A stretch of 64,000 nucleotides of DNA from positions 8,842,001 to 8,906,000 of the forward strand of contig NZ_FPJG01000006.1 in the NCBI RefSeq assembly GCF_900119165.1, in the 5' to 3' direction. Position numbers and translations under genes: made by a program. The notes under the pieces were generated by a model that was not told the DNA's origin, made no database searches, and saw only the letters and a list, made by a program, of their open reading frames with translations. Of the stretch, positions 3,865-11,215 are shown in pieces (the stretch's first letter is position 1; each line of letters opens with the position of its first letter). The stretch is from Amycolatopsis australiensis. Its GTDB lineage: Bacteria > Actinomycetota > Actinomycetes > Mycobacteriales > Pseudonocardiaceae.

Positions 3865-5226
3865 ATGGACGCGGAGCTCGCTCGGCTGGGTCTGGCAGAA
3901 CGTTCGGTACGACTCCTCACGGGCCGCGACATCTGGGCCTCGATCACTCCCCTGCTCGCACCGCGCCGGAACCTGGTGGCCGCCTTCGGCCACGTCGGCC
4001 CCGGCGCGGCCGCGCTGCTGCCCCTGGAACCGGGCGACACGCTGATCACGGACGCGAGCCTCGACCTGGTGCTGTCGGGCGCGACGAGCCCGCACGCCCT
4101 GCTGCACTGGGTGAAGGCGGGCGTGATCGTGCACTCGCTGCGCGGGCTCAACGCGAAGCTGGTGATCGCCGAAGACGAGCCGTCGTTCGTCGTCGCCGGC
4201 TCGGCCGACGTCACCGCCGCGGGCCCCCGCCAGCTGTTCGAAGCCGTGACGGTCACCACCGAGCGGGACACCGTCGAGGAGGCCCAGGAGGCCTGGCTCG
4301 AGTGGTGCGACCTGGCGGGCCCGGCCCTGACGGCGGGCGACCTGGAGCCACTGCTGGAGCAGTACGGCGCGGGCAAGCCGGTCACGTCCCGGCCGCCGAC
4401 GGCGCGCCCCGCCGCGGCTCCGGCCCGCCCGGTGGTCACCAGCCGGCCGCCGGCACCGGTCCGCCCCGCGGCCGCGACACCGCCGCCGTCGCCGGTCCGC
4501 CCCGCCACGCCACCGGCGGCTCCTTCCCCGGCCCGTCCGGCGGCCACCTCGCCCGTTGCCCCGCCGCGGCCCGCCGGCGCCACGCCCGGCTCCTCCGACC
4601 GCCCGGATGCGCCGGAGCCCGCTCTCGCCGGGACGGACGGCCTGCAGCCCGCCGCTGCGGAGACAAGCTCTCCGGCCGAGGCCCCGGAACCGGTTGCGGA
4701 CGCCGAGCCCGAAGCCGCCGACGTGCCCCGCCCGGCGTGGCCGCGCCCGGCGGAGCTGTACCTGGTCAGCCTCGTCGAAGGCGGCGAACCTTCGGCCGAA
4801 GCCGAGTACCGCCTCGAAGAGCTGGCGCGCGAGTACACCCACCCCGGCGAGAACGGCGAATCGCCGTTCCGCGTCGAGCTGTTCTGGGCCGACGACGGCC
4901 AGGGCCAGGACCCGCCGCGCACGCTCCGGCCGGGCGTGCACGTGATCCGCGTCTACAGCCAGAAACAGGGCCGCGCCCTGGTCGGGTCGCGGATCGAGGC
5001 CCCCGGTCTCGTGCTGCACGCCTACGCCGACGAGTACGCCTACCCGCGGCGCACGTACTGCTACCTCCTGACGCGGGAGACGACGTCGAAGCCGGTGTTC
5101 GGCGACCTCCGCAAGGGCCTCGCCGCGATCGGCGAGAAGCCGAACTTCCGCAACAGCTTCCAGGTGCCGCGGAAGATCGAAGCGCTGCTCGGGCTGTGGC
5201 CCGACCTGGGCTACGACCCCCGCTAG
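3865..5226 (+). CDS. Protein of unknown function with Pro/Ala-rich linker; N-terminus faintly phospholipase D-like
   Basis: A 453-residue cytoplasmic protein with three parts. Residues 1-165 form a globular domain containing LNAKLVIAEDEPSFVVAGSADVTAAG. This pattern resembles the second half of a PLD-family HKD motif plus GSxN region, but lacks the catalytic histidine, so enzymatic activity is doubtful. Residues 170-290 are a disordered Pro/Ala/Arg then Glu-rich linker. Residues 295-453 form a second globular domain (ELYLVSLVEGGEPSAEAEYRLEELARE to LWPDLGYDPR) that I do not recognise. It ends 134 bases before parE on the same strand; the gap is long enough for parE to have its own promoter. The start is supported by AAGG and GGG upstream of the ATG. 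Confidence 0.75.
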   Translation: MDAELARLGLAERSVRLLTGRDIWASITPLLAPRRNLVAAFGHVGPGAAALLPLEPGDTLITDASLDLVLSGATSPHALLHWVKAGVIVHSLRGLNAKLVIAEDEPSFVVAGSADVTAAGPRQLFEAVTVTTERDTVEEAQEAWLEWCDLAGPALTAGDLEPLLEQYGAGKPVTSRPPTARPAAAPARPVVTSRPPAPVRPAAATPPPSPVRPATPPAAPSPARPAATSPVAPPRPAGATPGSSDRPDAPEPALAGTDGLQPAAAETSSPAEAPEPVADAEPEAADVPRPAWPRPAELYLVSLVEGGEPSAEAEYRLEELAREYTHPGENGESPFRVELFWADDGQGQDPPRTLRPGVHVIRVYSQKQGRALVGSRIEAPGLVLHAYADEYAYPRRTYCYLLTRETTSKPVFGDLRKGLAAIGEKPNFRNSFQVPRKIEALLGLWPDLGYDPR

Positions 5227-5360
5227 GGGCGGCGCGCGCCACTCCCGGGACGGCCGTCGCGCGAAAACTGTCGGGGTGGGCGGATATCCTGCACTACGGT
5301 GCCGGGGAGTCCGCACCACCACCTGCACTTTCGCGAGCCACGATCCGGGAGAACGACCCT

Positions 5361-7412
5361 GTGACTGCCGAGACCTTGTACGGGGCCGACGACCTGACGC
5401 ATCTCGAGGGTCTCGAAGCCGTCCGCAAACGACCCGGGATGTACATCGGCTCCACCGACAGCCGGGGCATCAACCACCTCTTCTCCGAGATCGTGGACAA
5501 CTCCACGGACGAGGGCGTGGCCGGGCACGCGACGAAGATCGTCGTCACCCTGCACGCCGACGGCAGCGTCCAGGTGGAAGACGACGGCCGCGGCATCCCC
5601 ACCGGCACCCACGCCAAGTCCGGTTTGTCCGGCGTCGAGCTGGTGCTGACGCGGCTGCACGCCGGCGGCAAGTTCGGCGGCTCCGGCTACAAGACCTCCG
5701 GCGGCCTGCACGGCGTCGGCGCATCGGCGGTCAACGCGCTGTCGCACCGCTTCGACGTCACGGTGAAGCAGGACGGCAAGGTCCACCAGATGTCGTTCAA
5801 GCACGGCGTCCCGGGCACCTTCGACGGGCCCGGCCCGAAGGCGAAGTTCACCCGCCGCTCCGGGCTGAACCTCGTCGGCAAGATGAAGCGCGGCGAGCGC
5901 TCCGGCACGTCGATCCGCTACTGGTACGACTCGCGCTACTTCGAGTCGGGCGCGGCGCTGGACGTCGAAGGCGTCCGGGCCAAGCTGCGCAACACCGCGT
6001 TCCTCGTCCCGGGCGTCACGTACGTGCTGCGCACCGCGATCGAAGACACGATCAACGAGGAGACGTTCCACTTCCCGAACGGCCTCGTCGACATGGTCGA
6101 CTTCCTGACGCCGTCGGGCGAAAAGCCGGTCTGCGGCACGCTGCTGATCACCGGTGAAGGCACGTACAAGGAGAACGCGGCCGACGCGGCGGGCGTCATG
6201 CAGTCCAATGTGGAGCGTCGCGCCGAGGTCGAGGTGGCGCTGCGCTGGGGCACCGGCTACGAGCGCACGATCGAGTGCTTCACCAACACGATCCGCAACG
6301 TCCACGGCGGCACGCACCGCCGCGGCTTCGACCGCGCGCTGACCAAGGCGCTGCAGGAGGCGATTTCCAAGACCCGCGGGCTGCTCAAGCCCAAGGAGGA
6401 CATGCCGACGACCGAGGACGTCCTGGAGGGCATGACCGCGGTCGTGCACGTGCGGATCCCGGAGCCGCAGTTCACCTCGCAGACGAAGGACGAGCTGTCC
6501 ACCGCCGGCATCACCCGGGTCATCCAGGGCATCGTCGACAAGCACGTGAAGGCCTGGACCGAGGACCGCAAGACGAAGTCCGAGGCCAAGGTCGTGCTGC
6601 AGAAGGTGGTCGACGCCGCCCGCGTCCGGCTCACGCAGAAGCAGCAGAAGGACGCGGCCCGGCGCAAGACGGCCCTCGAAGGCGCGGCGATGCCGCCGAA
6701 GCTGGTCGACTGCCGCACCACCGGCATCTCCCGCAGCGAGCTGTTCCTCGTCGAGGGCGACAGCGCGCTCGGGTCGGCCCGCATGGCGCGCGTCTCGGAG
6801 TACCAGGCGCTGCTGCCGCTGCGCGGCAAGATCCTGAACGTCCAGAAGGCGTCGCTCGGCGACACGTTGAAGAACGCCGAGATCGCGTCGATCGTGCAGG
6901 TGCTCGGCGCGGGCACCGGCCGCACGTTCGACCTGACGACCATGCGCTACGGCCGCGTGATCCTGATGGCCGACGCGGACGTCGACGGCTCGCACATCCG
7001 CACGCTGCTGATCACGTTGTTCGCCCGGTACATGCGCCCGGTGATCGAGGACGGCAGGCTGTACGCGGCGATGCCGCCGCTGCACAAGGTCGTCACGAAG
7101 GGCCGCAACCCGGAGACGCACTTCACCTTCACCCAGCGCGAGATGGAGCAGAAGGTCGCCGAGCTGGAGAAGGCGGGCAAGACGATCGTCAAGCCGGTGC
7201 CGCGGTTCAAGGGCCTCGGCGAGATGGACGCCGACGAGCTGTGGGAGACCACGATGAACCCGGCGACCCGCTCGGTCCGCCGCATCACCCTCGACGACGC
7301 CGAAGCCGCCGAGGCCGCACTGGAACTGCTGATGGGCGAGAAGGTCGAGCCCCGCCGCAACTGGCTGGTCGAATCGTCCGACCGCGTCGACCGCGAAGCC
7401 ATCGACGCCTGA
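5361..7412 (+). CDS. parE: DNA topoisomerase IV subunit B (ATPase subunit)
   Basis: A 683-residue type IIA topoisomerase B subunit starting at GTG. The GHKL ATPase motifs are present: EIVDNSTDEG (N box), DDGRGIPT, and GGLHGVGASAVNALS. The TOPRIM metal-binding motifs EGDSALGSA and DADVDGSHI follow near residues 470 and 540, and the C-terminus is the usual GLGEMDADELWETTMNP block. It hydrolyses ATP to drive strand passage with ParC in decatenation of daughter chromosomes. Adjacency to parC (29-base gap), and the absence of dnaA/recF-type neighbours usually found beside gyrB, favour the second type II enzyme of actinomycetes over gyrase. A GGAGA-like site lies just before the start. Confidence 0.85.
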   Translation: MTAETLYGADDLTHLEGLEAVRKRPGMYIGSTDSRGINHLFSEIVDNSTDEGVAGHATKIVVTLHADGSVQVEDDGRGIPTGTHAKSGLSGVELVLTRLHAGGKFGGSGYKTSGGLHGVGASAVNALSHRFDVTVKQDGKVHQMSFKHGVPGTFDGPGPKAKFTRRSGLNLVGKMKRGERSGTSIRYWYDSRYFESGAALDVEGVRAKLRNTAFLVPGVTYVLRTAIEDTINEETFHFPNGLVDMVDFLTPSGEKPVCGTLLITGEGTYKENAADAAGVMQSNVERRAEVEVALRWGTGYERTIECFTNTIRNVHGGTHRRGFDRALTKALQEAISKTRGLLKPKEDMPTTEDVLEGMTAVVHVRIPEPQFTSQTKDELSTAGITRVIQGIVDKHVKAWTEDRKTKSEAKVVLQKVVDAARVRLTQKQQKDAARRKTALEGAAMPPKLVDCRTTGISRSELFLVEGDSALGSARMARVSEYQALLPLRGKILNVQKASLGDTLKNAEIASIVQVLGAGTGRTFDLTTMRYGRVILMADADVDGSHIRTLLITLFARYMRPVIEDGRLYAAMPPLHKVVTKGRNPETHFTFTQREMEQKVAELEKAGKTIVKPVPRFKGLGEMDADELWETTMNPATRSVRRITLDDAEAAEAALELLMGEKVEPRRNWLVESSDRVDREAIDA

Positions 7413-7441: not shown

Positions 7442-10400
7442 GTGGCACGCCGTAAGGCCCCCACCACCCGCGTCGACCCGAGCGCGTTCGACTCCGCCGG
7501 CGCGCAGGTCTTCGAGAACCCGCTGAAGACCGAGATCGAGGACTCCTACCTGGAGTACGCGTACTCGGTCATCCACTCGCGCGCCCTGCCGGACGCGCGG
7601 GACGGGCTGAAGCCGGTGCACCGCCGGATCCTGTACTCGATGAACGAGAACGGCTACCGCCCGACGCACGCGTACGTGAAGTCGTCCCGCGTGGTCGGTG
7701 ACGTGATGGGCCGCTACCACCCGCACGGCGACGTGGCGATCTACGACGCGATGGTCCGCATGGCGCAGGACTTCTCGCTGAACGTCCCGCTGATCGACGG
7801 CCACGGCAACTTCGGTTCGCCCGACGACGGCCCGGCGGCCAGCCGCTACTGCCTGGTCGGCGACACCCGGATCCGCCTGGCAGACGGCTCGAGCCCACGC
7901 ATTGCCGATGTCGTCAACCTGCCCGCCGATTCCGAGGCGGACGCCGACTTCGAGGTCCTCGACAAGGACGGCAAGGCCGTCCAGGTCGACAAGGTCTTCA
8001 ACTCGGGCGTGCATCCGACCGTCCGGATCACCACCAAGTCCGGCTTCTCACTCCGGGGCAGCGAGAACCATCCTGTCTTGTGTCTCGAGGCGCCGATGGG
8101 CGTCCCGATGTTCCAGTGGAAGCAGCTGGACGAGATCAAGCCAGGCACGATCGTGTGTGTGGCTCGCAATGCGTGGAGCAACGTCGTACCGACCGCTCGC
8201 GAGTACATGCTGGGCGTGCTGGCCGGCGCCTGGGCGTCCGAAGGCTTCGCGAGCGAGAACCGCGCCGGATTCAACAACGCCGACAAGCACTTCTTCGCCG
8301 AAGTGCTGCATGCTTACGACCAGATCGTCGGCGGTAAGCGGTACGTCTCCGAACGGCAGACCCGCCGGGATCGCAAGCGGATCCAGGAGCTCGACGTTCA
8401 GGAGTACGCCGGCGGCATGGACGCCTTCCGGGCGAGCCCGCTCGGAGAGTTCATCGGGCACCAAGCGGTCGACAAGGTCGTCCCCGAGTTCGTCTGGCGC
8501 AGTGGCCCAGGAGTCAAGCGGACTTTCCTGATGGCAGCGTTCGAAGGTGACGGCGGCTGTCGGATCGCCAAGGACGGCTTCACGATCCAGTACACCAGCT
8601 ACAGCGAGCAACTCGCGTCCGGGCTGCAAGAGCTGCTCGCCGAGTTCGGCGTCATCGCGGTACACCGGCGCTACACCCGCGCCGGCGGGTCGGTCGAGCA
8701 CCGGCTCGTCGTGTCCGGCCTCCGCAACGTCCGTGCCTTCGCCGAGCGGGTCGGCTTCCTCAAGACCAAGCAGGCGAAGCTGCAGGAGCTCGTCCGGCGT
8801 TCGGTGCTCCGCCCGCATCGGCTGAGCTCGGACCACGTGCCGTTCGTCGCCGAGTACGTCCGCGGCGCGCTCGACTTCGATCGCCGGGGCAGCGGGCGCA
8901 AGTGGCTCACCCAGCACAACTTCGACCGGATGGAGCGCTGGGAGACCGAGCGGCTCCGGATCATCGACCGGATCAAGGACACCGAGGTTCTGGCGACGAT
9001 CCTGCCCATCATGGACTCGGGTTACCGGTTCGAAGAGGTCACCGAGGCTGTCGCCGCGGCCCCGGCCGAGGTCTACTCCGTCCGCGTCACGACGGAAGAC
9101 CATTCGTTCCTCGCCGGCGGGTTCGTGAACCACAACACCGAAGCGCGGATGTCGCCCGAGGCGATGCAGCTGGTGGGCGAGCTGGGCGAGGAGACCGTCG
9201 ACTTCCGGCCGAACTACGACGGCTCACTGCAGGAGCCGACCGTGCTGCCCGCCGCGTTCCCGAACCTGCTGGTCAACGGCACGTCCGGGATCGCGGTCGG
9301 GATGGCGACCAACATGATCCCGCACAACCTCGGCGAGGTCATCGCGGCCGCGCGCTGGCTGATCACGCACCCCACCGCGACCCTCGACAAGCTGATGGAG
9401 TTCGTCCCGGGGCCGGACCTGCCGACCGGCGGCAGCCTGCTGGGCCTCGACGAGGTCCGCCGCGCGTACGAAACCGGCCGTGGCGTGGTCCGGATGCGCG
9501 CGAGCGTCGAAACCGGCCCGCTCGAAGGCAGCCGCGGGCGGCAGGCGATCACCGTCACCGAGCTGCCGTACGGCGTCGGGCCGGAGAAGGTGATCGAGAA
9601 GATCACCGACGAGGTCAACAAGTCGAAGCGGCTCACCGGCATCGCCGACGTCAAGGACCTCACCGACCGCGAGAACGGCACGCGGCTGGTGATCGAGTGC
9701 AAGGTCGGCGTCAACCCGCAGGCGCTGCTGGCCGACCTCTACCGGCTCACGCCGCTGGAGCAGTCGTTCGGCATCAACAACCTGGTGCTCGTCGACGGCC
9801 AGCCGCGCACGCTGGGGCTGAAAGAGCTGCTGGAGGTCTTCCTCCGGCACCGCTACGACGTCGTCACCCGGCGGACGCGCTACCGGCGGCGCAAGCGCGA
9901 AGAGCGGCTGCACCTGGTCGACGGCCTGCTGATCGCGCTGCTGAACATCGACAAGGTGATCCGGCTGATCCGCGAGAGCGAGAACGCCCAGGCCGCGAAG
10001 GACGGCCTGATGAAGCGGTTCAAGCTGTCGGAGATCCAGGCGACCTACATCCTCGACACGCCGCTGCGCCGGCTGACCAAGTACGACCGCCTCGAACTGG
10101 AGTCGGAGCAGGACCAGCTGCGCGAGGAGATCGCCGAGCTGACCACGATCCTCGAAGACGAGTCCGTGCTGAAAAAGCTCGTCTCGTCGGAGCTGGCGAA
10201 GATCGCGAAGGACTTCTCGACCGAGCGCCGCACTTCGCTGATCGACGGTGACCTGAAGGAGGTCCTGGCCGCGTCGAAGCCGTCGGGTCCGCTGGAGGTC
10301 GCGGACGACCCGTGCCAGGTGATCCTGTCGGCGACGGGCCTGGTCGCCCGCACGGCGGCCGAGTCCGAGGAGGCCACGGAAACCCGCCGGCGCAACGGCC

Positions 10401-11215
10401 GCGTGAAGCACGACGCGGTGGCGGCGGTGGTCCACACGACCGCGCGCGGCCAGGTGCTGCTGGTGACCAGCCGCGGCCGCGCGTTCAAGACGGACGTGCT
10501 GCCACTGCCGGTGCTGCCGGAGCAAGCGGGCACGGTCTCCCTGCGCGGCGGCATGGCGGCGAAGGAGCTGGTGCCGCTCGAAAAGGGCGAGACCGTCGTC
10601 GGCATCGCGCCGCTGGGCGAGCAGGCGGCGGGCTCCCCGGGCCTGGCGCTGGGCACGCGAGCGGGCGTGGTGAAGGTGTGCGCGCCGGAGTGGCCGGTCC
10701 GGTCGGACGAGTTCGAGGTGATCTCGCTGAAGGACGGCGACGAGGTGGTCGGCGCGACGTGGCTGACGGACGGCACGGAAACGCTGGCGTTCGTGTCGTC
10801 CGAGGCGTCGCTGCTGAAGTACGCGGCCTCGCTGGTCCGCCCGCAGGGCCTGAAGGGCGGCGGCATGGCGGGCATCAACCTGCCGTCCGGCGCGTCGGCG
10901 GTGTTCTTCGGCGCGATCCGCACGGACGACGACGAGCACGGTGAACCGCTGGTGATCACGTCGACCGGCCAGAGCGTGAAGGTGACACCGTTCAGCGAGT
11001 ACCCGGCCAAGGGCCGCGCAACGGGCGGGGTACGGGCACAGCGGTTCCTGAAGGGCGAAACCGCGCTGCGGCTGGCCTGGATCGGCCCACGGCCGGCCGG
11101 AGCGGCAAGGAACGGCGACCCGGTGGAGCTTCCGGAGGTGGACTACCGCCGAGACGGCTCCGGCCACGCCCACCCAGGCCCGGACGTGGTGGGGCACCTC
11201 ATCGAGCGCGACTGA
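7442..11215 (+). CDS. parC: DNA topoisomerase IV subunit A precursor, interrupted by an in-frame intein
   Basis: A 1257-codon precursor that should yield an 828-residue ParC after splicing. The winged-helix/breakage-reunion domain starts with [19 protein letters not shown] and leads to ASRY, where the Tyr at residue 136 is the catalytic residue that forms the DNA phosphotyrosine bond. An intein occupies residues 137-565, and the host protein resumes with [16 protein letters not shown]. The coiled tower and C-terminal beta-pinwheel follow (for example [12 protein letters not shown]). No canonical GyrA box (QRRGGKG-like) is visible in the pinwheel, which supports ParC rather than GyrA. An AAGGAG ribosome-binding site precedes the GTG. 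The splice junction lies on the active site, so the unspliced protein should be inactive. Confidence 0.9.
7850..9136 (+). other. Intein with LAGLIDADG-type homing endonuclease inside parC
   Basis: The insert is 429 codons. It begins with the nucleophile Cys ([13 protein letters not shown], block A) and has a block B variant (RGSENHPV, Ser-x-x-His). Two dodecapeptide-type endonuclease motifs follow: [12 protein letters not shown] near precursor residue 255 and [10 protein letters not shown] near 362. It ends with block F/G ([18 protein letters not shown], then VNHN) before Thr+1 of the host. Penultimate His and terminal Asn are intact, so splicing looks functional. The acidic endonuclease residues (Glu in ASEG, Asp in EGDGG) are present, so cleavage activity is possible. 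The insert uses more A/T-ending codons (CAT, TGT, GCT) than the surrounding parC, consistent with horizontal arrival. Confidence 0.93.

Follow-up and report, generated by a model that had tools for sequence, protein, structure and literature searches.

The parC locus and its insertion

The stretch of 64,000 nt from Amycolatopsis australiensis analysed here (contig NZ_FPJG01000006.1, positions 8,842,001 to 8,906,000; referred to as the window) carries on its forward strand a single uninterrupted parC reading frame (7442-11215, 1257 aa) that contains an intein. The insert comprises 1287 nt, i.e. 429 codons (parC codons 137-565), and is located between Tyr136, which we take to be the catalytic tyrosine on the basis of the known GyrA/ParC motif, and Thr566; the N-terminal extein ends with DDGPAASRY, the C-terminal extein opens with TEARMSPE. 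When joined, the exteins (136 + 692 residues) give a protein of 828 aa, equal in length to the intein-less Amycolatopsis allele of locus L088 (828 aa).

The insert is a class 1 intein that consists of a HINT splicing domain and a nested LAGLIDADG endonuclease, with the key residues intact. Inteins of class 1 are defined by an N-terminal Cys or Ser, the block B His, a penultimate His, a C-terminal Asn and Cys, Ser or Thr at position +1; the window intein possesses Cys1, Asn73-His74, His428, Asn429 and Thr+1. Its sequence was matched by the profiles TIGR01445 (intein_Nterm; 37.9 bits, cut-off 24.5) and Pfam LAGLIDADG_3 (60 bits, cut-off 22.5), with the Pfam Intein_splicing score (32.5) slightly below the cut-off of 35.8, and NCBIfam NF038098 (GyrA_w_intein) aligned across residues 1-429. 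The predicted structure (predicted local distance difference test score, pLDDT, of 93) exhibited the HINT splicing fold; the GyrA intein structure of Mycobacterium xenopi (PDB 1am2) was matched at E 9.5e-29, and the predicted endonuclease fold corresponded to those of PI-PfuI, PI-SceI and I-DmoI. No ParC intein structure turned up in the Foldseek/VIA structure search, an absence that is uninformative. As both acidic residues of the two LAGLIDADG motifs, E131 and D234, are present, the endonuclease looks intact and is predicted to be capable of cleavage. The coordinates of the individual features are compiled in Table 1.

Table 1. Features of the parEC locus in the window (aa, amino acids; ORF, open reading frame).
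Feature	Position	Strand	Basis
parE, topoisomerase IV B subunit, adjoins parC upstream, without intein	5226..7412 (5226 is not an assigned start codon)	+	Pfam DNA_gyraseB, DNA_gyraseB_C, Toprim, HATPase_c
ParC N-extein, 136 aa, last residue Tyr136 (codon 7847-7849)	7442..7849	+	ORF; best NCBIfam match PRK05561
Site a, unoccupied here, D87/V88 in RVVGD/VMG; relatives hold a second ParC intein there	7700..7705	+	sequence comparison
Intein, 429 aa, Cys1 to Val-Asn-His-Asn429	7850..9136	+	profiles, residues, predicted fold
N-terminal splicing region, Cys1 and block B GSENHPVL (S71, N73, H74; label after the intein block nomenclature)	7850..8080	+	TIGR01445 match, residues 1-77
First LAGLIDADG-type motif, acid E131	8204..8248	+	sequence
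LAGLIDADG_3 domain match including second motif, acid D234 (codon 8549-8551)	8513..8755	+	Pfam
C-terminal splicing region (D417, H418, N427, H428, N429)	9071..9136	+	residues invariant among ParC inteins
ParC C-extein, 692 aa, from Thr+1 (TEAR), plus stop	9137..11215	+	ORF

Identity of the host protein

The host is taken as the A subunit of topoisomerase IV; the name ParC was assigned because parE adjoins the gene and because GyrA could be excluded. The window protein fails the gyrA equivalog cut-off, and its intein-less ortholog L088 likewise scored below the gyrA equivalog cut-offs (746 of 902 and 718 of 877). The ParC equivalogs TIGR01061 and TIGR01062 matched host and ortholog below cut-off, and only the broader PRK05561 subfamily was passed by both. 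The true GyrA of the genome, in contrast, passes the gyrA equivalog (1228, cut-off 902), is uninterrupted at its AMRYTESR site and is encoded directly downstream of a gyrB-like reading frame (gyrB judged by eye). A search of the genome (99.8% complete) with the whole ParC revealed no second ParC. The preliminary description of this DNA was right in proposing a full-length intein directly behind the ParC tyrosine with both endonuclease motifs intact, and in assigning the host to topoisomerase IV instead of GyrA.

Distribution of the intein among relatives

The comparison with related genomes suggested in that description was carried out, and intein-less alleles proved to be common. Among 79 Amycolatopsis ParC loci, the window's own included, the junction occupied in the window (site b) is empty in 71 and occupied in 8; the insert is therefore not a constant part of the related proteins and, as in other class 1 inteins, constitutes an in-frame insertion missing from orthologous alleles. 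There is a second insertion point, site a, at the D87/V88 boundary (7702/7703), which is occupied in 15 of the 79 loci. Taken together, 57 loci are empty, 14 contain an intein at site a only, seven at site b only and one at both; the eight site-b inteins include two shortened ones. The 79 loci derive from 80 genomes: one (G339) was dropped for its broken parC frame (L141, G339:C1:9517000-9520000), in which the frame shifts near codon 887 of the query, either genuinely or through a sequencing error. A quick host tree calculated from extein DNA away from the insertion required at least 7 changes for site b and 12 for site a, and by path the neighbour nearest to the window has an empty site.

Among the matches listed for 297 genomes of the family, a site-b ParC-type intein was present in 39 (28 full-length with at least 75% identity, 11 in pieces), a site-a ParC intein, matched at 1e-20, in 55, an intein of either site in 82, and a GyrA-type intein of about 39-49% identity in 42. 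The host was checked by the extein for 29 of the 39 site-b genomes (the 28 full-length cases and G234) and for 21 of the 42 GyrA-type genomes; the remaining 10 and 21 were classed by identity, and the 55 site-a genomes by match and not by individual host reading. At 1e-20, any match, GyrA-hosted inteins included, was obtained for 72 of 397 genomes of the order sample and 19 of 396 of the phylum sample. Site-b carriers include Amycolatopsis, Lentzea, Kutzneria, Saccharothrix, Umezawaea, Prauserella and Actinokineospora as well as Micromonospora, Actinoplanes, Spirilliplanes, Nocardioides and Quadrisphaera. Within the window genome itself, two more intein_Nterm matches barely exceeded the cut-off (G000:C6:7395485-7395709 and G000:C6:6615326-6615553); LAGLIDADG_3 did not match there.

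The intein at site a differs from that at site b, with weak NCBIfam matches and a best PDB match of E 0.065. Its carriers read RVVGD-C...HN-CMGKYHPHGD, i.e. the +1 residue is Cys in place of Val. One such intein, at L070:710-2014 (RVVGD/CMG), is only distantly related and shows the same exchange of the extein +1 residue from Val to Cys. In the four double carriers measured, site a was positioned 49 codons upstream of site b. The hosts of 62 different site-b ParC inteins contained a site-a intein in 13 cases and lacked it in 46 (three unreadable); these 13 double-intein precursors are L067, L147, L151, L155 and nine others. Triple inteins had been guessed from long open frames (up to 2083 aa), a reading that was dropped: in L155 the excess falls upstream of ParC. 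Co-occurrence among the 297 family genomes, again for the matches listed, amounted to 12 genomes for sites a and b (7.2 expected, Fisher p 0.046), nine for site b and GyrA-type (5.5 expected, p 0.13) and 16 for site a and GyrA-type (7.8 expected, p 0.001); no association is claimed, because the genomes are related and only one of 79 loci in the genus has both a and b.

Conservation of splicing residues and decay of the endonuclease

Across the ParC inteins, endonucleases decay while the splicing residues stay invariant. Cys1, N73, H74, D417, H418, N427, H428 and N429 were identical in all 62 unique ParC inteins, a set that leaves aside L229 and L230 (boundaries not found) and L223 (tied host scores, ParC 358 versus GyrA 356). 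In the 50 full-length inteins D234 was always retained, and E131 was retained in 44 and lost in six; 12 of the 62 are shortened to 188-381 aa, and 11 of these are devoid of one or both endonuclease acids. GyrA-hosted inteins retained E131 in 46 of 48, a set assembled on the basis of similarity and hence not representative. The mini-inteins of Labedaea rhizosphaerae (L194:4001-4564, 188 aa) and Amycolatopsis bartoniae (L192:4001-4819, 273 aa) at the ParC site have lost both endonuclease acids.

Relation to the GyrA-hosted inteins

The junctions RY/C and HN/TE are common to ParC- and GyrA-hosted inteins at 148 of 150 loci, as found by a script that searched for that pattern; the pattern was missing only at L229 and L230, which matched without the N-terminal part. 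The window intein shares the insertion codon and full-length homology with the GyrA Tyr/Thr-site lineage, its host not being gyrase A, and the parallel drawn beforehand to the GyrA Tyr/Thr junction is borne out by GyrA inteins of the same order. It is thus a genuine intein, polymorphic among relatives and of the GyrA Tyr/Thr kind already known, that resides in a paralogous host.

Movement between the paralogs is indicated by GyrA-hosted inteins of three actinobacterial metagenome-assembled genomes (MAGs), since these are 68-71% identical to the window intein, whereas their C-exteins share only 38-40% identity with its ParC; in a quick intein tree, from which 39 of 111 rows had been removed (short, similar or thinned by hand), the three were placed inside the ParC-type part. 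Five GyrA-hosted inteins from actinobacterial and Dormiibacterota MAGs (L177, L178, L179, L184, L185) end with VNHN like the ParC type. Intein and extein trees of 45 carriers (five divergent and 12 shortened carriers left out) reject each other, both having weak branches. By amino-acid identity the intein exceeded the extein in 279 pairs out of 1225 (one of four divergent carriers takes part in 129 of these) and in 4 of 49 window pairs. The intein of Nocardioides L186 is closer than its extein to all 46 carriers of the other lineage (58-64% versus 53-58%), that of L181 to 40 of 46. Older movement of the intein lineage is therefore likely, as far as sequence comparison can tell. Around the junction, the gyrA site of the window genome agrees with its parC site at 28 of 40 bases; the parC sites of the 78 other Amycolatopsis loci differ from that of the window by 1-13 of 40.

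Interpretation and alternative explanations

The findings are best explained by a class 1 cis-splicing intein with LAGLIDADG homing endonuclease that belongs to the GyrA Tyr/Thr-site lineage and resides in the paralogous ParC site (estimated probability about 0.9). Splicing would follow the steps general to the intein family: Cys1 would form a thioester with Tyr136, Thr+1 would accept the N-extein, and cyclisation of Asn429, assisted by His428, would release ParC of 828 residues, while in the unspliced precursor the active site around the Tyr should not be properly formed. Intein-less parC is the expected target of the endonuclease: a cut at the junction would lead repair to copy the intein in. 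The element may be kept by homing and because it can hardly be lost precisely from a catalytic codon; it would display the usual cycle of gain, decay and loss, has probably long been resident in parC of Pseudonocardiaceae and Micromonosporaceae, and its lineage would have moved from one of the paralogs GyrA and ParC to the other on at least one occasion. A special function for the host need not be assumed.

Several results weigh against this reading. At fourfold degenerate sites the intein differed less than the extein in none of 49 window pairs and in 23 of 1225 pairs of full-length carriers; since the silent divergence of the intein usually exceeds that of the host, the sampled species give no sign of recent exchange by homing, and loss may account for most of the patchiness. 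The approximately unbiased (AU) test left a single clade of ParC-hosted inteins standing (p 0.419), so that number and direction of the moves between the paralogs are not fixed. Several separate gains by ParC from GyrA, for which the quick tree needs four host changes (72 rows; three without L223), are thus not forced. A mobile carrier did not emerge either: no relative was present in the viral contigs or plasmids searched, and of 50,697 phage records 24 matched; the 20 listed have 22-26% identity, and GyrA inteins of Staphylococcus phages account for several of the matches; a phage or plasmid vector was accordingly rejected for these collections. Finally, both splicing and cleavage by the window intein are predictions.

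A recent horizontal acquisition from a donor of lower GC content would be in line with the patchy distribution and with the codon usage of the insert, in which more A/T-ending codons than in the host had been noted beforehand. This observation holds: the G+C content at third codon positions (GC3) is 0.888 in the intein versus 0.971 in the N-extein and 0.952 in the C-extein (the exteins used for comparison give 0.954, Fisher p 4e-5). The fairly recent transfer that had been deduced from it is not supported. The GC3 deficit is general to these inteins (intein below host in 49 of 52 ParC and 45 of 46 GyrA carriers), so that codon usage lends no support to recent transfer; the gap in the window (0.066) is below the median of 0.083, being the 20th smallest of 52, and intein GC3 tracks host GC3 (Spearman 0.49). 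Moreover, the nearest inteins are those of carriers from the same genus, and besides the fourfold-site results, synonymous divergence (dS) of the intein exceeded that of the extein in 40 of 40 listed of the 49 window comparisons (0.57 versus 0.38 with A. iheyensis). General deficit and fourfold-site divergence led to the rejection of recent transfer as deduced from codon usage; a gain from an unsampled relative would be compatible with the data, and recent acquisition is altogether unlikely.

That unspliced ParC is inactive and splicing acts as a control point, as also proposed beforehand, is plausible, and the intein might be retained as a conditional switch whose splicing rate (set, e.g., by redox via Cys1 or by the DNA state) determines the amount of active decatenase. 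The insertion right at the catalytic Tyr, the single ParC gene found, the invariant splicing residues and the persistence of forms in which an endonuclease acid or the greater part of that domain is gone would agree with such a role, as would the situation in Streptomyces coelicolor, where the linear chromosome can do without topoisomerase IV and circular replicons require it (PMC3905888). However, invariance is equally expected without a switch because ParC must be made, and the patchiness within one genus (8 of 79) demonstrates that close relatives manage without the intein; regulation by splicing is thus possible but unsupported, and maintenance as a switch appears quite improbable. Apart from this, it is a speculative and rather unlikely proposal that the active site around the ParC Tyr of Pseudonocardiales and Micromonosporaceae represents a hot spot for inteins, in which two sites at a distance of 49 codons can be stacked and which is fed by exchange with the GyrA site; the endonuclease-dead and mini forms (down to 188 aa) would fit a benefit such as a decatenase reserve until splicing. 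Nothing was found in favour of a dead insert that is in frame but does not splice, or of an assembly artefact, and both can practically be dismissed, given the presence of the insert at the identical codon in many assemblies obtained independently (of 53 loci collected, 48 are ParC-hosted and five GyrA-hosted), the open frame, the conserved splicing residues and the one ParC copy found in a nearly complete genome. The insert is an intact, ordinary-looking intein in an unusual host and is best regarded as a mobile element that homes, decays and is lost in the usual cycle.

Comparison with known systems

The well-studied GyrA intein is hereby extended to topoisomerase IV, with one lineage at the same codon of two paralogs, and the natural series of empty, a, b, double, endonuclease-dead and mini alleles in one actinomycete family makes homing, decay and the cost or use of an active-site intein directly comparable. 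Mention of a ParC intein was found neither by phrase search of the open-access papers covered nor in titles and abstract openings among the matches listed, a search outside which subscription papers, intein databases and GenBank annotation lie, so that novelty is unproven. The host table of a 2018 review contains DNA gyrase A and B, and ParC is not in it as far as the accessible part goes (PMC5874633); the available portions of PMC10886550, PMC8529194 and PMC5050341 likewise do not mention a ParC intein.

GyrA inteins of mycobacteria are known to occupy the same Tyr/Thr junction. The Tyr/Thr inteins of the M. xenopi GyrA type differ from the window intein in their host (GyrA versus ParC), and full-length GyrA-type inteins of the order scan are 38-49% identical to it. 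Whereas all 62 ParC inteins end with VNHN, 43 of 48 GyrA-hosted ones have Ser in place of the first Asn of this ending; block B contains Ser in 60 of 62 ParC inteins versus Thr in 44 of 48 GyrA-hosted ones. The Staphylococcus phage GyrA inteins reside, like the window intein, in the A subunit of a type II topoisomerase, but they are distant (the 22-26% given above, in 20 listed of 24), and only some of the matching phage records are annotated as gyrase. The closest published case found is that of the neighbouring haloarchaeal MCM-a and MCM-d inteins (PMC10643990): as at ParC sites a and b, two independent neighbouring inteins are patchily distributed in one gene of DNA replication. In the MCM case the host is an archaeal helicase and homing was tested in vivo (PMC10643990), whereas the ParC sites lie 49 codons apart in a bacterial topoisomerase and are documented by sequence evidence.
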